DNA from: Akkermansiaceae bacterium
GTDB taxonomy: Bacteria > Verrucomicrobiota > Verrucomicrobiia > Verrucomicrobiales > Akkermansiaceae
Direction: 5' to 3'
NCBI GenBank assembly: GCA_029253285.1
Contig: JAQWZU010000067.1
Location: forward strand, 1 to 64,000
Length of the DNA stretch: 64,000 nucleotides
Positions 53,380 through 61,240 of the stretch are shown here, piece after piece (position 1 is the first letter of the stretch; each line of letters begins with the position of its first letter). Under the pieces are notes generated by a model, which saw only the letters and a program-made list of their open reading frames with translations, made no database searches and was not told the origin of the DNA. The translations under genes were made by a program, and so were the position numbers.

Positions 53380-56300
53380 TTATGGCAATCTCCTAAATCG
53401 ATAAAACCGGCGGGTCTCAGAAAGCACATCGGTAAGAGGAAGCGTCGTGCTGTCAGCCAAGACCGGCGAACCCAGCGCCTCCCAGTTCTCCAAATTCCCA
53501 CTTACCTCAGCTTCGTAGAGAAATCCCGGTTCGGCGATGACCGAAAAGGTGATGAGATTCCCGTCGATTGAATAGGTCGCACTTGGATCAACCGCAACCC
53601 GACCATTGGCAGCACCAGGACTCGGGAAAGCAAGGGCGGCAATTTCACCCTCCGAAAGCCCCATCGTCTTATCCGGTGACTGACGACCAAAATCCACCCG
53701 ATCAATCAACGAGCCATCGGGAGCGGAAAGCAAAATACTCTCTCCATCGACACCCAACTTAAAGGGCACATGAAGATCCGGACGGGCAGACAAATCATTC
53801 TGCAAGATCTCATCATCAGCCCAGACCCTTAAATACCCTTCACCGGGAATATTGAAGCCGTCGGGAATCTGAAACTTAAAAAGATCAGCGGGATCATCAC
53901 TCAAAAACCACCCCGAAAGATCCGCCGCTGACAGCCCGGGGTTTGCCAACTCAATCCAGTCGTCGAACCGGTCATCCACAGGATCGGCAACCGCACTTTG
54001 ATTGGAAGCCATCCATTCGTTAATGACAAGGCTCGGCCAGCTTTCCACCCCGGTGTAGGTGAGAGTCAGCACCTCACTGGCGATTTCCATCCCCTCCAAA
54101 TCGAGAGCCCGAATCAGAAGCAGATTCTCTCCCGGTTGCAGCACAAAAGGAGCAGACCAATCACCCACCGAAATCCAATCCAGGTTGAGCGGGATGCCAT
54201 TCACGTCGATCATCACCGCTCCCACCGGAGCTCTCCCCGACAAGGTGATGGTCTGCTCGGAGACCGATGAACCATCCGTTGGCGAAACAAGCTGGAAGGG
54301 TTCATTGACCGCATTGAGCTGAGGAAGAATGAAGGCTGCTCTCTGATCGATCCAGTTGGGAACCGAAAGACTGTAAGGTCCACTCGGAGAGAACGGAGAA
54401 GTAAACCCAAGCCCTGCATCCGCGTAAGCCGCTCGCTTCTTCTCGAGAGTTGGCGTCACTCCGGCACCCGAAAAGAAATTCCCGAACGATTCTTCCATCG
54501 TCCGCCAATAGGCCCTTACAAATGTCGGATTGTCGTACATCCGTCTTAGGTTGGCATCCACATTCGAAGGAAATAGTCCTTGGTTCACCGGATCGTTAAA
54601 GACCCCCAAACCGACATCAAAATCCCAAGTGAACTGCACCCATTTTCCTCCGTCGGGTTTATACAAATAGGTATTTTTCCAGTTGGTATTCCCAAAGGCA
54701 TCCCAGAACGAAGCAAGATCAATCAAGGCCCAGGTCCGCATCCAGTTTTCCATGTCGATGATCTCGAGCAGATTCTTCTCATAGTCTGGTCCGGAGTCAT
54801 CGGCCCGCGTCACCAAATCAATAATGCTTGTATCATCAAGACGGGTCCGGCTCCCCCGGGCCCGGGCGCCGGTGGTCCAGCGGTAGCGCGCCGCGCGGGT
54901 CTCTCCATCCGCTTCAAAAACATCGATGACATTTCGCACAAAGGGACGAGCCCGCACTCCGCTGTCACTCGTTTCGTTGTCATTACTCGTCTTGAAAAGC
55001 TCTCCCTTGTCTCCGGGGTAGTGGGAATTGGCCAACACTCCGTCAGGCTGCTCGGCATCGTGATAAATCGTGCGACGACGAATGCCGTTCATGTAGAGAT
55101 AGACGTCCCGACGATGCAAGGTGGGCAGCTTCAATCGATCCGCAAACCAATGCATCAATTGTTCCCGCTGATTCGTGACGTCCCGCACCGGGTAATCGAG
55201 CGTCAGCTTATCCGCCCCCAAAAATTCATCGCCCTCGGGCAATGTCACATCATAGGAAACCGAGCCGCTCGTTGGGAAACTGTGCGAGTCTTTATTGCCT
55301 CCATAAAATGCACCTGCATCATAAATTGCCCGAGCTCCATTATAAACAAAAGTAATCGGAAACGGATCATTGCTCCTGAAGGGCTGGGCATCCCATTCAC
55401 TCAGGGAAGCCTCCGTAATCCACATGCGATAGGTTCCAAACCCTTCCCCATTGTCGGGCTCACCAACCCGAGCCAAGGCCTCACGGTCGGGCGGATAAGA
55501 CGCACTCGCCGAGAGTGCATCGTCGGAAAGAACTTTAAACGCCACCAGCGAACCACTTGCCTGCCCCGGAATTGAGGCAGAATAAATCCCATCTCCCGGC
55601 GTTAAATCCGCGCCCGTTCCGTCATCGTTCATTGGCAAATCAGCCGTGGAGGAAGAGGGATCAATCCGGTAACGCAAAGTCACCGCTCCGATCCCATCGA
55701 AATCAGAAACCTGCGCATAAACATGAATATCCTCACCTGCCGCAGGGAGAATTGGTCGATGACTCAGCTCCTCAATCTGTGGCCCCGCATTAGTCACCGC
55801 CTGACTATTCACCGCCCCAGGCGTTCCCAGGTTAGCGGGAACATCCAGCTGACCCGCCGCCTCCAACCAATTGCCGCGAAAGCGCAGGATAAACTCAGGA
55901 TGCCCCGCCAACCAACGAACCCTGGCTCGCAGGGTCGCCTTCGATCCCGATGACAAAGTCTGGGAAAGAACAGTACGCGCCCGATTCGGACCAGGGTCTC
56001 CCCGACGACTTGCCACCAACTTCAATGAATTCGATCCCTCAAAGGACTCTCCCGTTTCCAGCTGTGATCGCCTTTGGTTCCCTTGAAAAAACCACCCCGA
56101 GGTTCCACTTTCAAAATCTCCATTCGCCAAAATGTTGGATCCACCGTCGGGAATCACTTCGACTTGATCGACCAGAGCCTCACCCGGCCCCAATAAAAAC
56201 ATCTGCACCTGATCCGCCGGCGCGGCGCTGTTTCCATGAGCCAGGGTTCCGTTGAATTCAACCGTGGTCCATCCCGCTTTGGCCGACTCATCACTATCGA

Positions 56301-58500
56301 CCCAATTCGATGCCCCAAACGAGCCCGCTCCGGAATCCCTTCTTTCCAGAGTTGCCCCGCGTCCGTCCGAGAATCGATGCCAGCGATCAGAGTCGCGGTA
56401 GCTCACCTCATCCTCAACTACCAAAAAGCCATCTTCCCAGCGGGACAATGCCACTCTCTCACCAGCATCAGAAAGCATCCCTTCGTAATCTCCTACCACT
56501 GAATTGGCATCCAGTCCGGGATGATTGGCCAAAGTTCGAGCCCGATCTTTCGCGATCACCAGAAATCCACCGGCGAGAATCTGCGTTCCGTTGGGAATCA
56601 CAAAATCAATCCCATCGGTAAAAGTCCATCCACTCAGATCTCTGGTCAGAAGCCCGGTATTATGAATCTCAATCCATTCGTCCGCATCATCGTGAGTGGG
56701 AGGATGAAACATCAGTTCATTGATCACAATCGATGGCTGTGACTGCGGCCGAAGAGGAGCATCGCTGCGCGGTCGCACGAATGGCACGCCGGTCGACGAA
56801 GCCGGAACGACCACCGCATCCAGAATCCGCAATCGGTCGGGGTCAGTCAGGTAAACCGCATCGCCTCCCGAACTTAGCGAAAAGCCCAACTCAGATTCCG
56901 TATAACGAATCGTCCCGCCAGCCGGGATCGTTGTGGCGGCAGGAATTTCAAAAAGCGCTAAAGAGTCTCGGGCGTCACTCAAGCCACAACCCGAGAGATC
57001 AACCGGGTAAGGCGCCCCATTTCGAAGCTCCACAAAATCCTCTGCCGGAGCCTCCGAGTTCGCCAAGACAGAGGAGACAAAGACCTGATCCAAATCGTCG
57101 CTCGGAATCGTATCGGAACTTCCCGGCGATCCCCCAATGGCGTGGCTGGCTTCCCACGCGCGAACATCATTTTCACCGTAAGAAGCTCTCGCCAGGATCA
57201 GAGAATGCCCCGCTCCATCCGCCGCTGCGGGCCACGAAAATTCATCGTTATAATTAAGCTCCTGCACGATAGCGTCCGATGGCTTGCGCAAACGAATCCT
57301 TCCACCTTGATTTGAGAGATTACCCTCCCACGGACCCGCGACTCCCGAGATGACATATTCGCTTTCCACATTTTCGGGGACTCTCGCGACTACCAAGAAC
57401 CCCTCCCCATGAACCTCCGATCCATTCGGAAAAACGAAATCCACATCCCCGCTCAATCGCCACCCCGAAATATCCTCCGCCCAAGGCTGTGAGTTAAAGA
57501 GTTCGATGAATTCCAGTTCCTTCCCGTCACTCCGCTGAGCGGGATGATAAAGCACCTCGGAGATCGTGATTCCGGACCGCCGGGATGATGGCCCCAGCGG
57601 CTCATAGCTCAATTCTTCCCGGGTCGGAAACTTCGGAATGTCGATCGTGATTTCCGCAGCCTCGGAATTAACGAAGCCATTCGCATTACTCACCCTCACG
57701 GTATAGTCGCCCGCTTGATCCCAGTCCTCGGCATTTAGAGTAAGGCTCTCGAGAGTCGCTCCAGGAATCGCCACTCCATCAAGATACCACTGAAAACTCA
57801 ATGGATCCGCCCCGACGACTTCCACTTCAATCTTGATTTCATCACCACCGTCCCATGTCGCCGTTGGCTCCGCAGTAATCTCGGGCGGTGCATCAGGATT
57901 TACTTCGGAGGCTAACAATCGAAACCCATTGATTGCCGACTGCGGAAGTCCCGCGGTATTCGTCACTTGAAATGCCCCGCTCGCCGTCGTCTCAATCTCG
58001 AAAACCATCGCAAAGGAATCATTATCCACCAAGGCATCCTGAAAATTTACTGAAGCCGACACCGGATCGCCCGTTCCCGAGGTTACCGTCCAGACTTTAT
58101 CCGACGCATTGGACGCCCCCGGATCCCAGGCAAAGAGCACAAACTGATACGAATGATTCGGATTCAAGCCGCTGAAGTCCAAAGTCAGCGCACCTGTGGG
58201 CGATGTCGCGATCAACAAATCTTCATACAATCGCTGATAGCTATATCCCGGAGGAGAACCATCCGAACTCCCCCGGTTTCCCGGAACTCCAAATCCCGAG
58301 CTCGTAGAGATCGCAACCGTCGTCATCCCTGAAGTCACTCCCGCATCCGTCGTGAAATCCGCCGAAGATTCCGTCCCCGAAAACGCCGAAGGCCAGAGGT
58401 CAAACCCCGCTTGATCATCCTGATTAAACTCGATCGACAGGATTTCCACCTGGGCCGTGGCCACGCAAGTGGAAGCCAGTAATCCAAGATATTTTTTCAT
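53380..58500 (-). CDS. Giant exported protein with lamin-tail repeats and divergent CotH-like domain
   Basis: 1706 residues with a signal peptide (MKKYLGLLASTCVATAQ). The N-terminal 200 residues are a jelly-roll with GLNPNHSYQFVLFAWDPG. An Ig-like domain follows (VEVVGADPLSFQWYLDGVAI), then at least four lamin-tail domains (ITISEVLYHPAQ; SVLANSEAPAEDFVELRNGAPYP; VINELMFHPPTHDDADEWIEIHNTG; LVINEWMASNQSAVADPVDDRFDDWIELAN), a CotH-like region around 1050-1400 (RDVYLYMNGIRRRTIYHDAEQPDG; VQFTWDFDVGLG), and a C-terminal FLYEAEVSGNLENWEAL segment. The CotH glycine/Tyr motif is altered compared with the 32105 protein. It is convergent with nothing; YbjN starts on the other strand immediately upstream. 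Confidence 0.83.
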   Translation of the reverse strand: MKKYLGLLASTCVATAQVEILSIEFNQDDQAGFDLWPSAFSGTESSADFTTDAGVTSGMTTVAISTSSGFGVPGNRGSSDGSPPGYSYQRLYEDLLIATSPTGALTLDFSGLNPNHSYQFVLFAWDPGASNASDKVWTVTSGTGDPVSASVNFQDALVDNDSFAMVFEIETTASGAFQVTNTAGLPQSAINGFRLLASEVNPDAPPEITAEPTATWDGGDEIKIEVEVVGADPLSFQWYLDGVAIPGATLESLTLNAEDWDQAGDYTVRVSNANGFVNSEAAEITIDIPKFPTREELSYEPLGPSSRRSGITISEVLYHPAQRSDGKELEFIELFNSQPWAEDISGWRLSGDVDFVFPNGSEVHGEGFLVVARVPENVESEYVISGVAGPWEGNLSNQGGRIRLRKPSDAIVQELNYNDEFSWPAAADGAGHSLILARASYGENDVRAWEASHAIGGSPGSSDTIPSDDLDQVFVSSVLANSEAPAEDFVELRNGAPYPVDLSGCGLSDARDSLALFEIPAATTIPAGGTIRYTESELGFSLSSGGDAVYLTDPDRLRILDAVVVPASSTGVPFVRPRSDAPLRPQSQPSIVINELMFHPPTHDDADEWIEIHNTGLLTRDLSGWTFTDGIDFVIPNGTQILAGGFLVIAKDRARTLANHPGLDANSVVGDYEGMLSDAGERVALSRWEDGFLVVEDEVSYRDSDRWHRFSDGRGATLERRDSGAGSFGASNWVDSDESAKAGWTTVEFNGTLAHGNSAAPADQVQMFLLGPGEALVDQVEVIPDGGSNILANGDFESGTSGWFFQGNQRRSQLETGESFEGSNSLKLVASRRGDPGPNRARTVLSQTLSSGSKATLRARVRWLAGHPEFILRFRGNWLEAAGQLDVPANLGTPGAVNSQAVTNAGPQIEELSHRPILPAAGEDIHVYAQVSDFDGIGAVTLRYRIDPSSSTADLPMNDDGTGADLTPGDGIYSASIPGQASGSLVAFKVLSDDALSASASYPPDREALARVGEPDNGEGFGTYRMWITEASLSEWDAQPFRSNDPFPITFVYNGARAIYDAGAFYGGNKDSHSFPTSGSVSYDVTLPEGDEFLGADKLTLDYPVRDVTNQREQLMHWFADRLKLPTLHRRDVYLYMNGIRRRTIYHDAEQPDGVLANSHYPGDKGELFKTSNDNETSDSGVRARPFVRNVIDVFEADGETRAARYRWTTGARARGSRTRLDDTSIIDLVTRADDSGPDYEKNLLEIIDMENWMRTWALIDLASFWDAFGNTNWKNTYLYKPDGGKWVQFTWDFDVGLGVFNDPVNQGLFPSNVDANLRRMYDNPTFVRAYWRTMEESFGNFFSGAGVTPTLEKKRAAYADAGLGFTSPFSPSGPYSLSVPNWIDQRAAFILPQLNAVNEPFQLVSPTDGSSVSEQTITLSGRAPVGAVMIDVNGIPLNLDWISVGDWSAPFVLQPGENLLLIRALDLEGMEIASEVLTLTYTGVESWPSLVINEWMASNQSAVADPVDDRFDDWIELANPGLSAADLSGWFLSDDPADLFKFQIPDGFNIPGEGYLRVWADDEILQNDLSARPDLHVPFKLGVDGESILLSAPDGSLIDRVDFGRQSPDKTMGLSEGEIAALAFPSPGAANGRVAVDPSATYSIDGNLITFSVIAEPGFLYEAEVSGNLENWEALGSPVLADSTTLPLTDVLSETRRFYRFRRLP

Positions 58501-59614: not shown

Positions 59615-60169
59615 ATGAAACCTACCATCCTATTTGGAATGATTTGTGCTTTCGGAGCGTGCACCGCGCCCGCTCTCGCTGCACCTGTCGAAGCTGCTGA
59701 CGCATCTTCAATCTCGGGCTTCTCGGTCTCCTTCTCAGGGGGCGGATGAGGCGCTGCTGCAAAGGCCAGTTCGGCCTTAAAATCGCTTGAAGGCGTAGAC
59801 AAAGTTCTCCTCTCCGGCACGACTGCGTTTGTCACCGTCAAAGGAGAAACGACACTCTCCCGCACTGCCATTCGCAAAGCATTCGACCCCAAGGGACTCA
59901 AGGTCAAGGGACTCAAGAAAGCGTCAATTGCAAAGCCCAAGGAAGCATACCAGCTGGCGATCACCGGCGGCACATGAGCGCAGACCAATGAAAGAGTGCG
60001 TGGCACTCTCGAAAAGTTGGACGGTGTCGGTGCAGCCTTCGTAAACCGCGGTCAAGTCATGCTCCTCATGAGCACTGAAGAGACCTACAACGAAGAGGAA
60101 ATTGCCAAGATCTTGAAACGCTACAAATCGACAGTGAAGTCATCCTCCAAGGTGGCTTCCCCACTCTAG
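59615..60169 (+). CDS. Two-domain HMA-like exported selenoprotein with two UGA codons (45 and 121)
   Basis: 185 codons, no TAA or TAG before the final TAG at 60167-60169, and TGA only at codons 45 and 121. The first 23 residues are a signal peptide (MKPTILFGMICAFGAC, cut ALA-AP). Domain 1 reads FSVSFSGGG-U45-GAAAKASSALKSLEGVDKV, then AFVTVKGETTLSRTAIRKAFDPKGLKVKGL. Domain 2 reads AYQLAITGGT-U121-AQTNERVRGTLEKLDGV, then VMLLMSTEETYNEEEIAKILKRY. Both match the beta-alpha-beta-beta-alpha-beta pattern of heavy-metal-associated (MerP-like) domains, where U sits at the first Cys of the GMTCxxC motif and the second Cys is Ala/Thr. The role, metal or selenol redox, is unknown. Confidence 0.85.
59747..59780 (+). 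promoter_or_regulatory. SECIS-like element 1 of the two-UGA gene
   Basis: The TGA is 59747-59749. The hairpin AAGGCC (59762-59767), loop AGUUC, GGCCUU (59773-59778) has six perfect pairs. Eighteen bases separate the TGA from the loop, and the second loop base is G. This is among the cleanest SECIS-like structures one could expect for an undescribed gene. Confidence 0.75.
59975..60010 (+). promoter_or_regulatory. SECIS-like element 2 of the two-UGA gene
   Basis: The TGA is 59975-59977. AGAGUGC (59993-59999), loop GUG, GCACUCU (60003-60009) gives seven perfect pairs with a minimal 3-base loop starting with G. The loop begins after 22 intervening bases. Its sequence is unrelated to that of element 1, which argues against coincidence of a duplicated repeat. 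Confidence 0.75.
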
Positions 60170-60193
60170 ATTTTAAAGAAAGCATTTAACCTA

Positions 60194-60230
60194 AACCCCC
60201 GATGTGCCCGGCACGTCGGGGGTTTTTATT
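60194..60230 (+). terminator. Strong rho-independent terminator
   Basis: AACCCCCGATGTGC, 3-base loop, GCACGTCGGGGGTT, then TTTATTTTT. The 14-base stem has a single U-G pair. It lies 24 bases after the selenoprotein stop and 2 bases before the end of the convergent spermidine-synthase-like gene. Confidence 0.9.
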
Positions 60231-60231
60231 T

Positions 60232-60960
60232 TTAGCGCAATGCCAGAAAAAGGGTGTGGGTATACCGTTTTGCTTTGGGGTATGCCTTGGCCGGTATTGC
60301 CTCCACCTTCGAAAAGACCTGCTTCAGTGATTTGACAAAGCCTGGATCAGGATGGGCCGACCAATAGACGACGCGCCCTCTGGGGCGCAGAGCCGCTCGG
60401 GCGATTTCCAGTCCCCGCCGTTTATAAAGACGGGCATTTCCCTTCTGCACCAGCGGATCCGGGCTGTTATCAACGTCGAGTAGGATGACATCATAACGCT
60501 CACCTCCCTGCATAATCTTGAAAACATCCTTCAACTGAACGGAAACTCGGGAATCGTCCAACAAGCGTCCGTTAACTTCACCGAGATAGTCACGGTTCCA
60601 ATCAATCAGCTCCTGCAACAACTCCGCAACCACAATCTCGGAATCCTCCGAAACCAGCTCCAGGACCTTTCGCAGCGTGAATCCGAAGCCCAATCCTCCG
60701 ATGAGGACTCGCTGGGCCTTTTCCGATGGCTCGCAAGCCAGCTCTGCCATGGTCTGCTCGGAAGACGCCGCCGTGGTGCTCATCAAAGGCACTCCACCAA
60801 TTTTGAGGAAATGGTGACCGTCATGCTCCTGCAAAACAATGGTCTCACCATCGGGCGAAGTGCTGGTAGCGAGAGTAGTCGTCGGCTTCACGTTCACGAG
60901 CAAGCCATGGGTGGCGCGAAAGAAAAAGGACAATTCGGACCGATAAAACGGGTTCGACAA
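60232..60960 (-). CDS. Spermidine-synthase-like methyltransferase-fold protein
   Basis: 242 residues from ATG 60960; GTG at 60897 would give a 221-residue form closer to the family's usual start (VKPTTTLATSTSPDGETIVLQEHDG), and I cannot decide. The Rossmann methyltransferase-like core has RVLIGGLGFGFTLRKVLEL (nucleotide-loop motif), VVAELLQELIDWNRD, VILLDVDNSPDPLVQ and an Arg/Gly loop RAALRPRGRVVYWSAHPD. This is the SpeE-like group of small proteins related to spermidine synthase. A polyamine role is not proven, since key propylamine-binding residues were not checked. It is divergent from the DUF3311 gene. Confidence 0.8.
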   Translation of the reverse strand: MSNPFYRSELSFFFRATHGLLVNVKPTTTLATSTSPDGETIVLQEHDGHHFLKIGGVPLMSTTAASSEQTMAELACEPSEKAQRVLIGGLGFGFTLRKVLELVSEDSEIVVAELLQELIDWNRDYLGEVNGRLLDDSRVSVQLKDVFKIMQGGERYDVILLDVDNSPDPLVQKGNARLYKRRGLEIARAALRPRGRVVYWSAHPDPGFVKSLKQVFSKVEAIPAKAYPKAKRYTHTLFLALR

Positions 60961-61003: not shown

Positions 61004-61240
61004 ATGAACAAACCTGTCATTCTCATCATCTTTCTGGTGCTCGTTGTGCTGCATCAGGATTTCTGGAACTGGGACAACGCCAGTCTCGTCTTCGGCTTCA
61101 TGCCCGTTGGTCTTTTTTATCACGCCTGCTACTCGCTGGTCGCCGCCCTCTTCTGGGGCCTCGTGATGAAATTCGCCTGGCCCACCGAACTTGAGGAATG
61201 GGCCGAAGGAAACTCCAACGATGAGGAGGGCGCAGAATGA
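61004..61240 (+). CDS. DUF3311 small membrane protein
   Basis: 78 residues with two predicted membrane segments (VILIIFLVLVVLHQDFW and YHACYSLVAALFWGLVM) and an acidic tail. HQDFWNWDNASLVFGFMPVGLFYHACYS is the DUF3311 signature. These proteins occur almost always immediately upstream of a sodium:solute symporter, as here, where stop and start overlap by 4 bases (ATGA). It is presumed to be a small accessory subunit of that transporter. Confidence 0.92.
   Translation: MNKPVILIIFLVLVVLHQDFWNWDNASLVFGFMPVGLFYHACYSLVAALFWGLVMKFAWPTELEEWAEGNSNDEEGAE

Follow-up and report, generated by a model that had tools for sequence, protein, structure and literature searches.

The window (the whole stretch of 64,000 nucleotides that was analysed) carries a gene for a double-selenocysteine (double-Sec) protein. 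This protein is small, is exported by marine bacteria of the Akkermansiaceae type and is made of two successive HMA-like domains with one in-frame UGA codon in each. From the comparison with its relatives, both UGA codons are almost certainly decoded as Sec, and the two selenols may act together on a soft metal or another electrophile in the periplasm.

A codon check of the frame agrees with an earlier note on this DNA, which had reported exactly two TGA codons and neither TAA nor TAG inside it. The only in-frame stops are the TGA codons 45 and 121, and the read-through product is MKPTILFGMICAFGACTAPALAAP...SGGGU45GAA48...TGGTU121AQT124N... (Table 1). The standard code reads UGA as a stop, and routine ORF calling breaks the frame into pieces, as would be expected if the gene were decayed or truncated, if the sequence were in error, or if UGA stood for another amino acid in the code of this organism. 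Against such readings, UGA ends other genes of the window normally, for example that at 61004-61240.

Table 1. Features of the double-Sec gene in the window
Feature	Position	Strand	Detail
CDS, double-Sec double-HMA protein	59615..60169	+	184 residues with UGA read as Sec; ATG start, TAG stop
Predicted export signal (signal peptide, ...PALA|AP)	59615..59683	+	cleavage site by eye
HMA-like domain 1, residues about 32-106	59708..59932	+	predicted beta-alpha-beta-beta-alpha-beta; AlphaFold2, Foldseek, Pfam
UGA codon, predicted Sec45	59747..59749	+	first-Cys position of MTCxxC, helix 1 start, domain 1; TGA 53/53
Predicted SECIS hairpin 1	59761..59779	+	arms 59761-59767 / 59773-59779; loop AGTTC 59768-59772
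HMA-like domain 2, residues about 110-180	59942..60154	+	AlphaFold2, Foldseek
UGA codon, predicted Sec121	59975..59977	+	first-Cys position, domain 2; TGA 53/53
Predicted SECIS hairpin 2	59992..60010	+	arms 59992-59998 / 60004-60010; loop CGTGG 59999-60003
Hairpin of 15 bp with T tract, resembling an intrinsic terminator, at the end of the gene	60193..60232	+	

The family set comprises 53 distinct sequences, the window's own included, all from the same order (Verrucomicrobiales); every one of them has TGA in both columns and TGA nowhere else in the frame. A clearly similar gene is present in 29 of the 58 related genomes (the window's own counted), and each complete copy has two TGAs, one copy (L027) being interrupted by a contig end. 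Among 387 genomes of the order, the full-length gene was found in 50, with exactly two TGAs in 50/50, and a sample of 388 genomes of the phylum gave zero extra carriers beyond the order. For phyla outside that of the window, coverage came from the DNA pattern alone, which was written with TGA and retrieved 31 members and one chance match (L128) from the genome collection; the protein-level pattern scan of this collection gave no matches because its pattern specified Cys codons, and no plasmid homologue of the double-Sec protein was found. The carriers are Akkermansiaceae and related Verrucomicrobiales MAGs, together with the cultured Rubritalea profundi, which makes the family open to testing. 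The homologues are free of frameshifts and have both TGAs at the same sites, whereas the earlier note had named frameshifts, or stops at random positions, as what would speak against its reading. Invariant positions are few and are grouped round the Sec sites (G42, G44, U45, G68, G118 and U121). The dN/dS ratio is well below 1 before the first UGA, between the two and after the second, with values of 0.02-0.19 against close relatives and medians of 0.34-0.44 over all pairs, the pairs being partly saturated and the values indicative. This pattern indicates that purifying selection acts on all three segments, including those downstream of each TGA.

At both sites the UGA is followed by a stem of 7 bp with a 5-base loop, which starts 11 bases past UGA 1 and 14 bases past UGA 2. 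Covariation was evaluated on 46 distinct sequences for site 1 and 33 for site 2. The stem cells are paired in 90.7% and 93.5% of cases, respectively, and changes on both sides of a pair were counted in 49 and 58 cells, against 15 and 18 expected from shuffles. The covariation score was reached by 0/500 shuffles, and it was lost in the control where the partner was slid by one base. Since the SECIS stems sit in coding sequence, a protein-preserving shuffle was used, in which synonymous codons were exchanged within columns and every protein remained unchanged; the observed pairing was reached in 0/1000 of these shuffles at either site, which indicates that stem pairing exceeds what coding explains. 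Only CGU, AGU, GGU and, in four cases, CGG occur as the loop codon, the loop reading NGU or NGG whatever residue is encoded; six codons are available for Ser and six for Arg, yet the choice is confined to NGU/CGG. Bacterial SECIS elements have GU in the apical loop as their hallmark, as in E. coli fdhF. The fixed spacing from the UGA to a covarying hairpin with GU in its loop thus identifies, by sequence criteria, a bacterial SECIS at both sites. In the window itself, site 1 has six of the seven pairs and, folded in isolation, an alternative structure scores better; the Rfam search returned nothing above a gathering score.

The four genes selA, selB, selC and selD, which the earlier note had named as a check of its reading, were all found in the genome of the window: selA at 490 bits, selB as an intact frame of 647 codons (SelB of 647 aa), selC as a tRNA-Sec with the anticodon TCA, and selD at 373 bits. 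The selD gene (L040, G000:C135:17623-18552) carries one in-frame TGA and corresponds to a Sec-containing selenophosphate synthetase. Among the related genomes that are at least 90% complete, 16 have the gene and selB, 7 have selB only, 16 have neither and 0 have the gene without selB (Fisher p 7e-6, uncorrected for kinship), and the three carriers lacking selB above cut-off are genomes that are 65-88% complete. In the 24 more distant carriers, selA is above cut-off in 22 and selB in 22, with both missing in 0. By sequence comparison, both UGAs are almost certainly decoded as Sec by SelA, SelB, SelC and SelD, one SECIS hairpin helping each. The view that this is not a selenoprotein gene is very improbable in the face of the complete conservation of both codons (53/53), the purifying selection on either side of them, the covarying SECIS and the full Sec machinery; a pseudogene, a frameshift or an alternative code is rejected on the grounds of conservation, selection and SECIS.

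The homologues with Cys in place of Sec, for which the earlier note had proposed a search, did not appear: no full-length Cys-for-Sec version was found in the 387 genomes of the order or in the 388 of the phylum, and Cys occurs at the Sec-equivalent site only in remoter HMA domains, such as those of L085. Cys homologues are a usual though not an obligatory feature of selenoproteins, and a recent paper states that every known selenoprotein now seems to have one (PMC12013277). The missing Cys homologue is unusual, but the Sec reading is not weakened, given the abundance of Sec/Sec homologues. As screens for selenoproteins depend on pairs of Cys and UGA, the double-Sec family would be expected to escape them since no full-length Cys homologue is apparent. 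L085 (G335:C202:10853-11257, minus strand) is a tandem HMA protein, likewise exported, whose two CxxC motifs are normal; it was rejected as a Cys orthologue, the tree placing it with the CxxC and UxxxC domains, outside the double-Sec family. Its genome also has a double-Sec form (L094), and L085 is the natural Cys counterpart for comparison with it.

The signal peptide and the two HMA-like domains that the earlier note had read from the letters were both recovered, as were its placing of each UGA at the first-Cys position of the HMA loop and the loss of the usual CxxC chelate. The N-terminal stretch resembles a signal peptide by eye, and residues 1-29 have low confidence in the AlphaFold2 model, as expected for such a segment. 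As several relatives (L094, L095, L097-L099) have a lipobox Cys where the signal peptide ends, the product appears, on inspection by eye, to be exported and in some species lipid-anchored. PF00403 (HMA) matches in two stretches (29.5 bits at E 1e-6, the gathering score being 24.8). AlphaFold2, run on the family alignment, predicts two successive beta-alpha-beta-beta-alpha-beta domains (mean pLDDT 82, pTM 0.71), for which the best PDB matches in Foldseek are the tandem HMA domains of ATP7B and CopA, and the profile search concurs. In this model Sec45 and Sec121 each open helix 1 of their domain, in the place that the first Cys takes in GMTCxxC. The GMxCxxC metal-binding motif is absent and is replaced by G-x-[GT]-U-x-x-[A/T], the second Cys being gone in both domains; domain 1 mostly has Ala, Gly or Ser in its place, domain 2 has Thr (Thr124 here, giving UxxT) in 45/53 proteins, and the Met of GMTC is changed to Gly. 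No Cys occurs from just before Sec45 to the C-terminus in 50/53 proteins. Since the second Cys of CxxC is gone, the mature protein would contain two selenols and no thiol, and it raises a sharp chemical question, its only Cys-type chalcogens being two selenols in two linked metal-carrier folds.

The domain tree separates both domains of the double-Sec family from the UxxxC and CxxC domains with a branch support of 98/93 and unites the domain 2 sequences in one clade (100/95); the tree, built on few alignment columns, is compatible with a single origin of the tandem. Other HMA selenoproteins are encoded in the same genomes. These exported single-HMA proteins, called here family B, have a UxxxC motif (GMTUGVGC, GLKUASGC), are widespread in the order and include many lipoproteins; one lies in the genome of the window (L165, G000:C11:11539-11853), and the loci are L165, L105-L120 and L166-L184. 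UxxC is rare among them (L117, L182, L184), and L115 and L167 are tandem forms with two Sec. At L168 (G335:C32:928-1521) and at L176 (G357:C188:234-854), two different UxxxC HMA selenoprotein genes adjoin in the same orientation.

Because both Sec are kept in 53/53 sequences, without a case in which a single one is lost or replaced, we infer that the two selenols act as a pair. Their most probable task would be the periplasmic capture of a species that is soft and thiophilic, such as the metal ions Cu(I), Ag(I) or Hg(II). Each domain would contribute one selenolate to hold the metal, whether inside a single molecule or across molecules, and when empty the protein might form a Se-Se bond. We give the capture of a soft metal or electrophile by paired selenolates about an even chance. 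The kinship with metal-binding HMA domains and the presence of UxxxC single-HMA proteins in the same genomes are in its favour, whereas the lack of a second chelating residue in either domain and the change of the Met of GMTC to Gly are not. The UxxT of domain 2 points the same way, being shared with redox selenoproteins, and no linked metal transporter, chaperone or regulator is conserved among the neighbours.

The selenols could instead act as periplasmic reductants of peroxides, disulfides or halogen oxidants, with a Sec45-Sec121 diselenide or selenenyl adduct formed on the way and the HMA fold serving as a scaffold only, and we regard this redox role as a tenable reading, somewhat short of an even chance. 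A Sec at the start of a helix should have a lowered pKa, the second Cys is lost, the two Sec are strictly co-conserved, and the UxxT found in domain 2 is listed for GPX-like, OsmC-like and Grx-like selenoproteins (PMC13188914). In four genomes of the genus, a peroxiredoxin-like gene (cluster 5) lies next to the double-Sec gene. This neighbour is however confined to few species, no redox partner gene is conserved, and the protein has no conserved His, Trp or Cys for catalysis. HMA folds are not known as oxidoreductases. The UxxT of domain 2 and the lost second Cys would lean to redox and the HMA ancestry to metal, and on this point, where the earlier note had preferred redox or one-selenol chemistry to simple metal binding, the sequence does not decide; we give a modest edge to the capture of a metal or electrophile over a purely redox (diselenide) role.

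The genomic context is no help on function because the gene stands alone, without conserved neighbours; a conserved operon that would reveal its role was looked for and rejected, as the neighbours vary even inside the genus. In the window the gene adjoins a 1706-residue exported protein (53380-58500, minus strand) with repeated stretches that resemble, by eye, lamin-tail and CotH-like sequences, and this neighbour is conserved in the closest relatives only. The protein could also be a selenium carrier or store, which would bind selenide or keep selenium in the periplasm for later use, as two Sec in a small exported protein present only in Sec-using lineages might suggest. We consider this improbable: 160 residues hold just two Sec, which occupy the ancestral ligand position and are not scattered, and the folds are under strong constraint. 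Returning to the paired selenolates, a more specific proposal can be put forward tentatively, namely that this is an obligate double-Sec family for which no counterpart with Cys exists. Its two HMA domains, by giving one selenolate each, would form a shared Se-M-Se (or Se-Se) site, and the metal-carrier fold would have become a thiol-free, selenium-only binding or redox device of the periplasm.

The earlier note had held that this is not a described selenoprotein family, and the published descriptions are in agreement with it. A 2026 review lists 119 prokaryotic selenoprotein families or subfamilies (PMC13188914), among which the HMA-type entries comprise a metal-binding protein of the UxxU kind and a UxxC cation ATPase, next to a putative mercuric transport protein (MerT); the 2008 ocean survey named a MerP selenoprotein (PMC2398784). 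Neither the 119-family table nor the ocean survey describes a protein of two domains with a single Sec in each, and a literature search, with many subscription papers outside its scope, gave no account of HMA-domain selenoproteins of Verrucomicrobiota. The nearest NCBIfam models score far under their cut-offs. Membership in the MerP/CopZ families was rejected at 16-27 bits against curated cut-offs of 85-95 bits (18.4 against 92.55 for MerP, TIGR02052), and membership in the UxxU metal-binding (seleno)protein family NF041115 at 21.1 bits against 95, no UxxU being present. Set apart by these descriptions and scores, the double-Sec protein looks like a previously unlisted selenoprotein family, which RefSeq may already name.

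Its closest structural and sequence matches in the PDB are the tandem HMA domains of P1B copper ATPases (domains 3-4 and 5-6 of ATP7B, and the N-terminus of Bacillus subtilis CopA), which share the two successive ferredoxin-like folds and have the ligand residue where helix 1 begins. Unlike them, the double-Sec protein is free-standing and exported, with one Sec per domain, no CxxC and no ATPase. The MerP/CopZ-type metallochaperones (TIGR02052, NF047957, NF033795) have the HMA fold, MerP being exported, and give the weak profile matches cited above, but they use CxxC, whereas the double-Sec protein has two domains and Sec only. NF041115, the MerT/CopZ selenoprotein NF045683 and the 'MerP' selenoprotein (PMC2398784) are likewise HMA-type selenoproteins with presumed metal binding; NF041115, however, places two Sec in a single motif of a single domain, and the double-Sec protein has one in each of two domains. 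Family B resembles it in the exported HMA fold and in the Sec at the first-Cys position, and differs in having a single domain, in retaining the second Cys at U+4 and in grouping with the CxxC domains in the tree.
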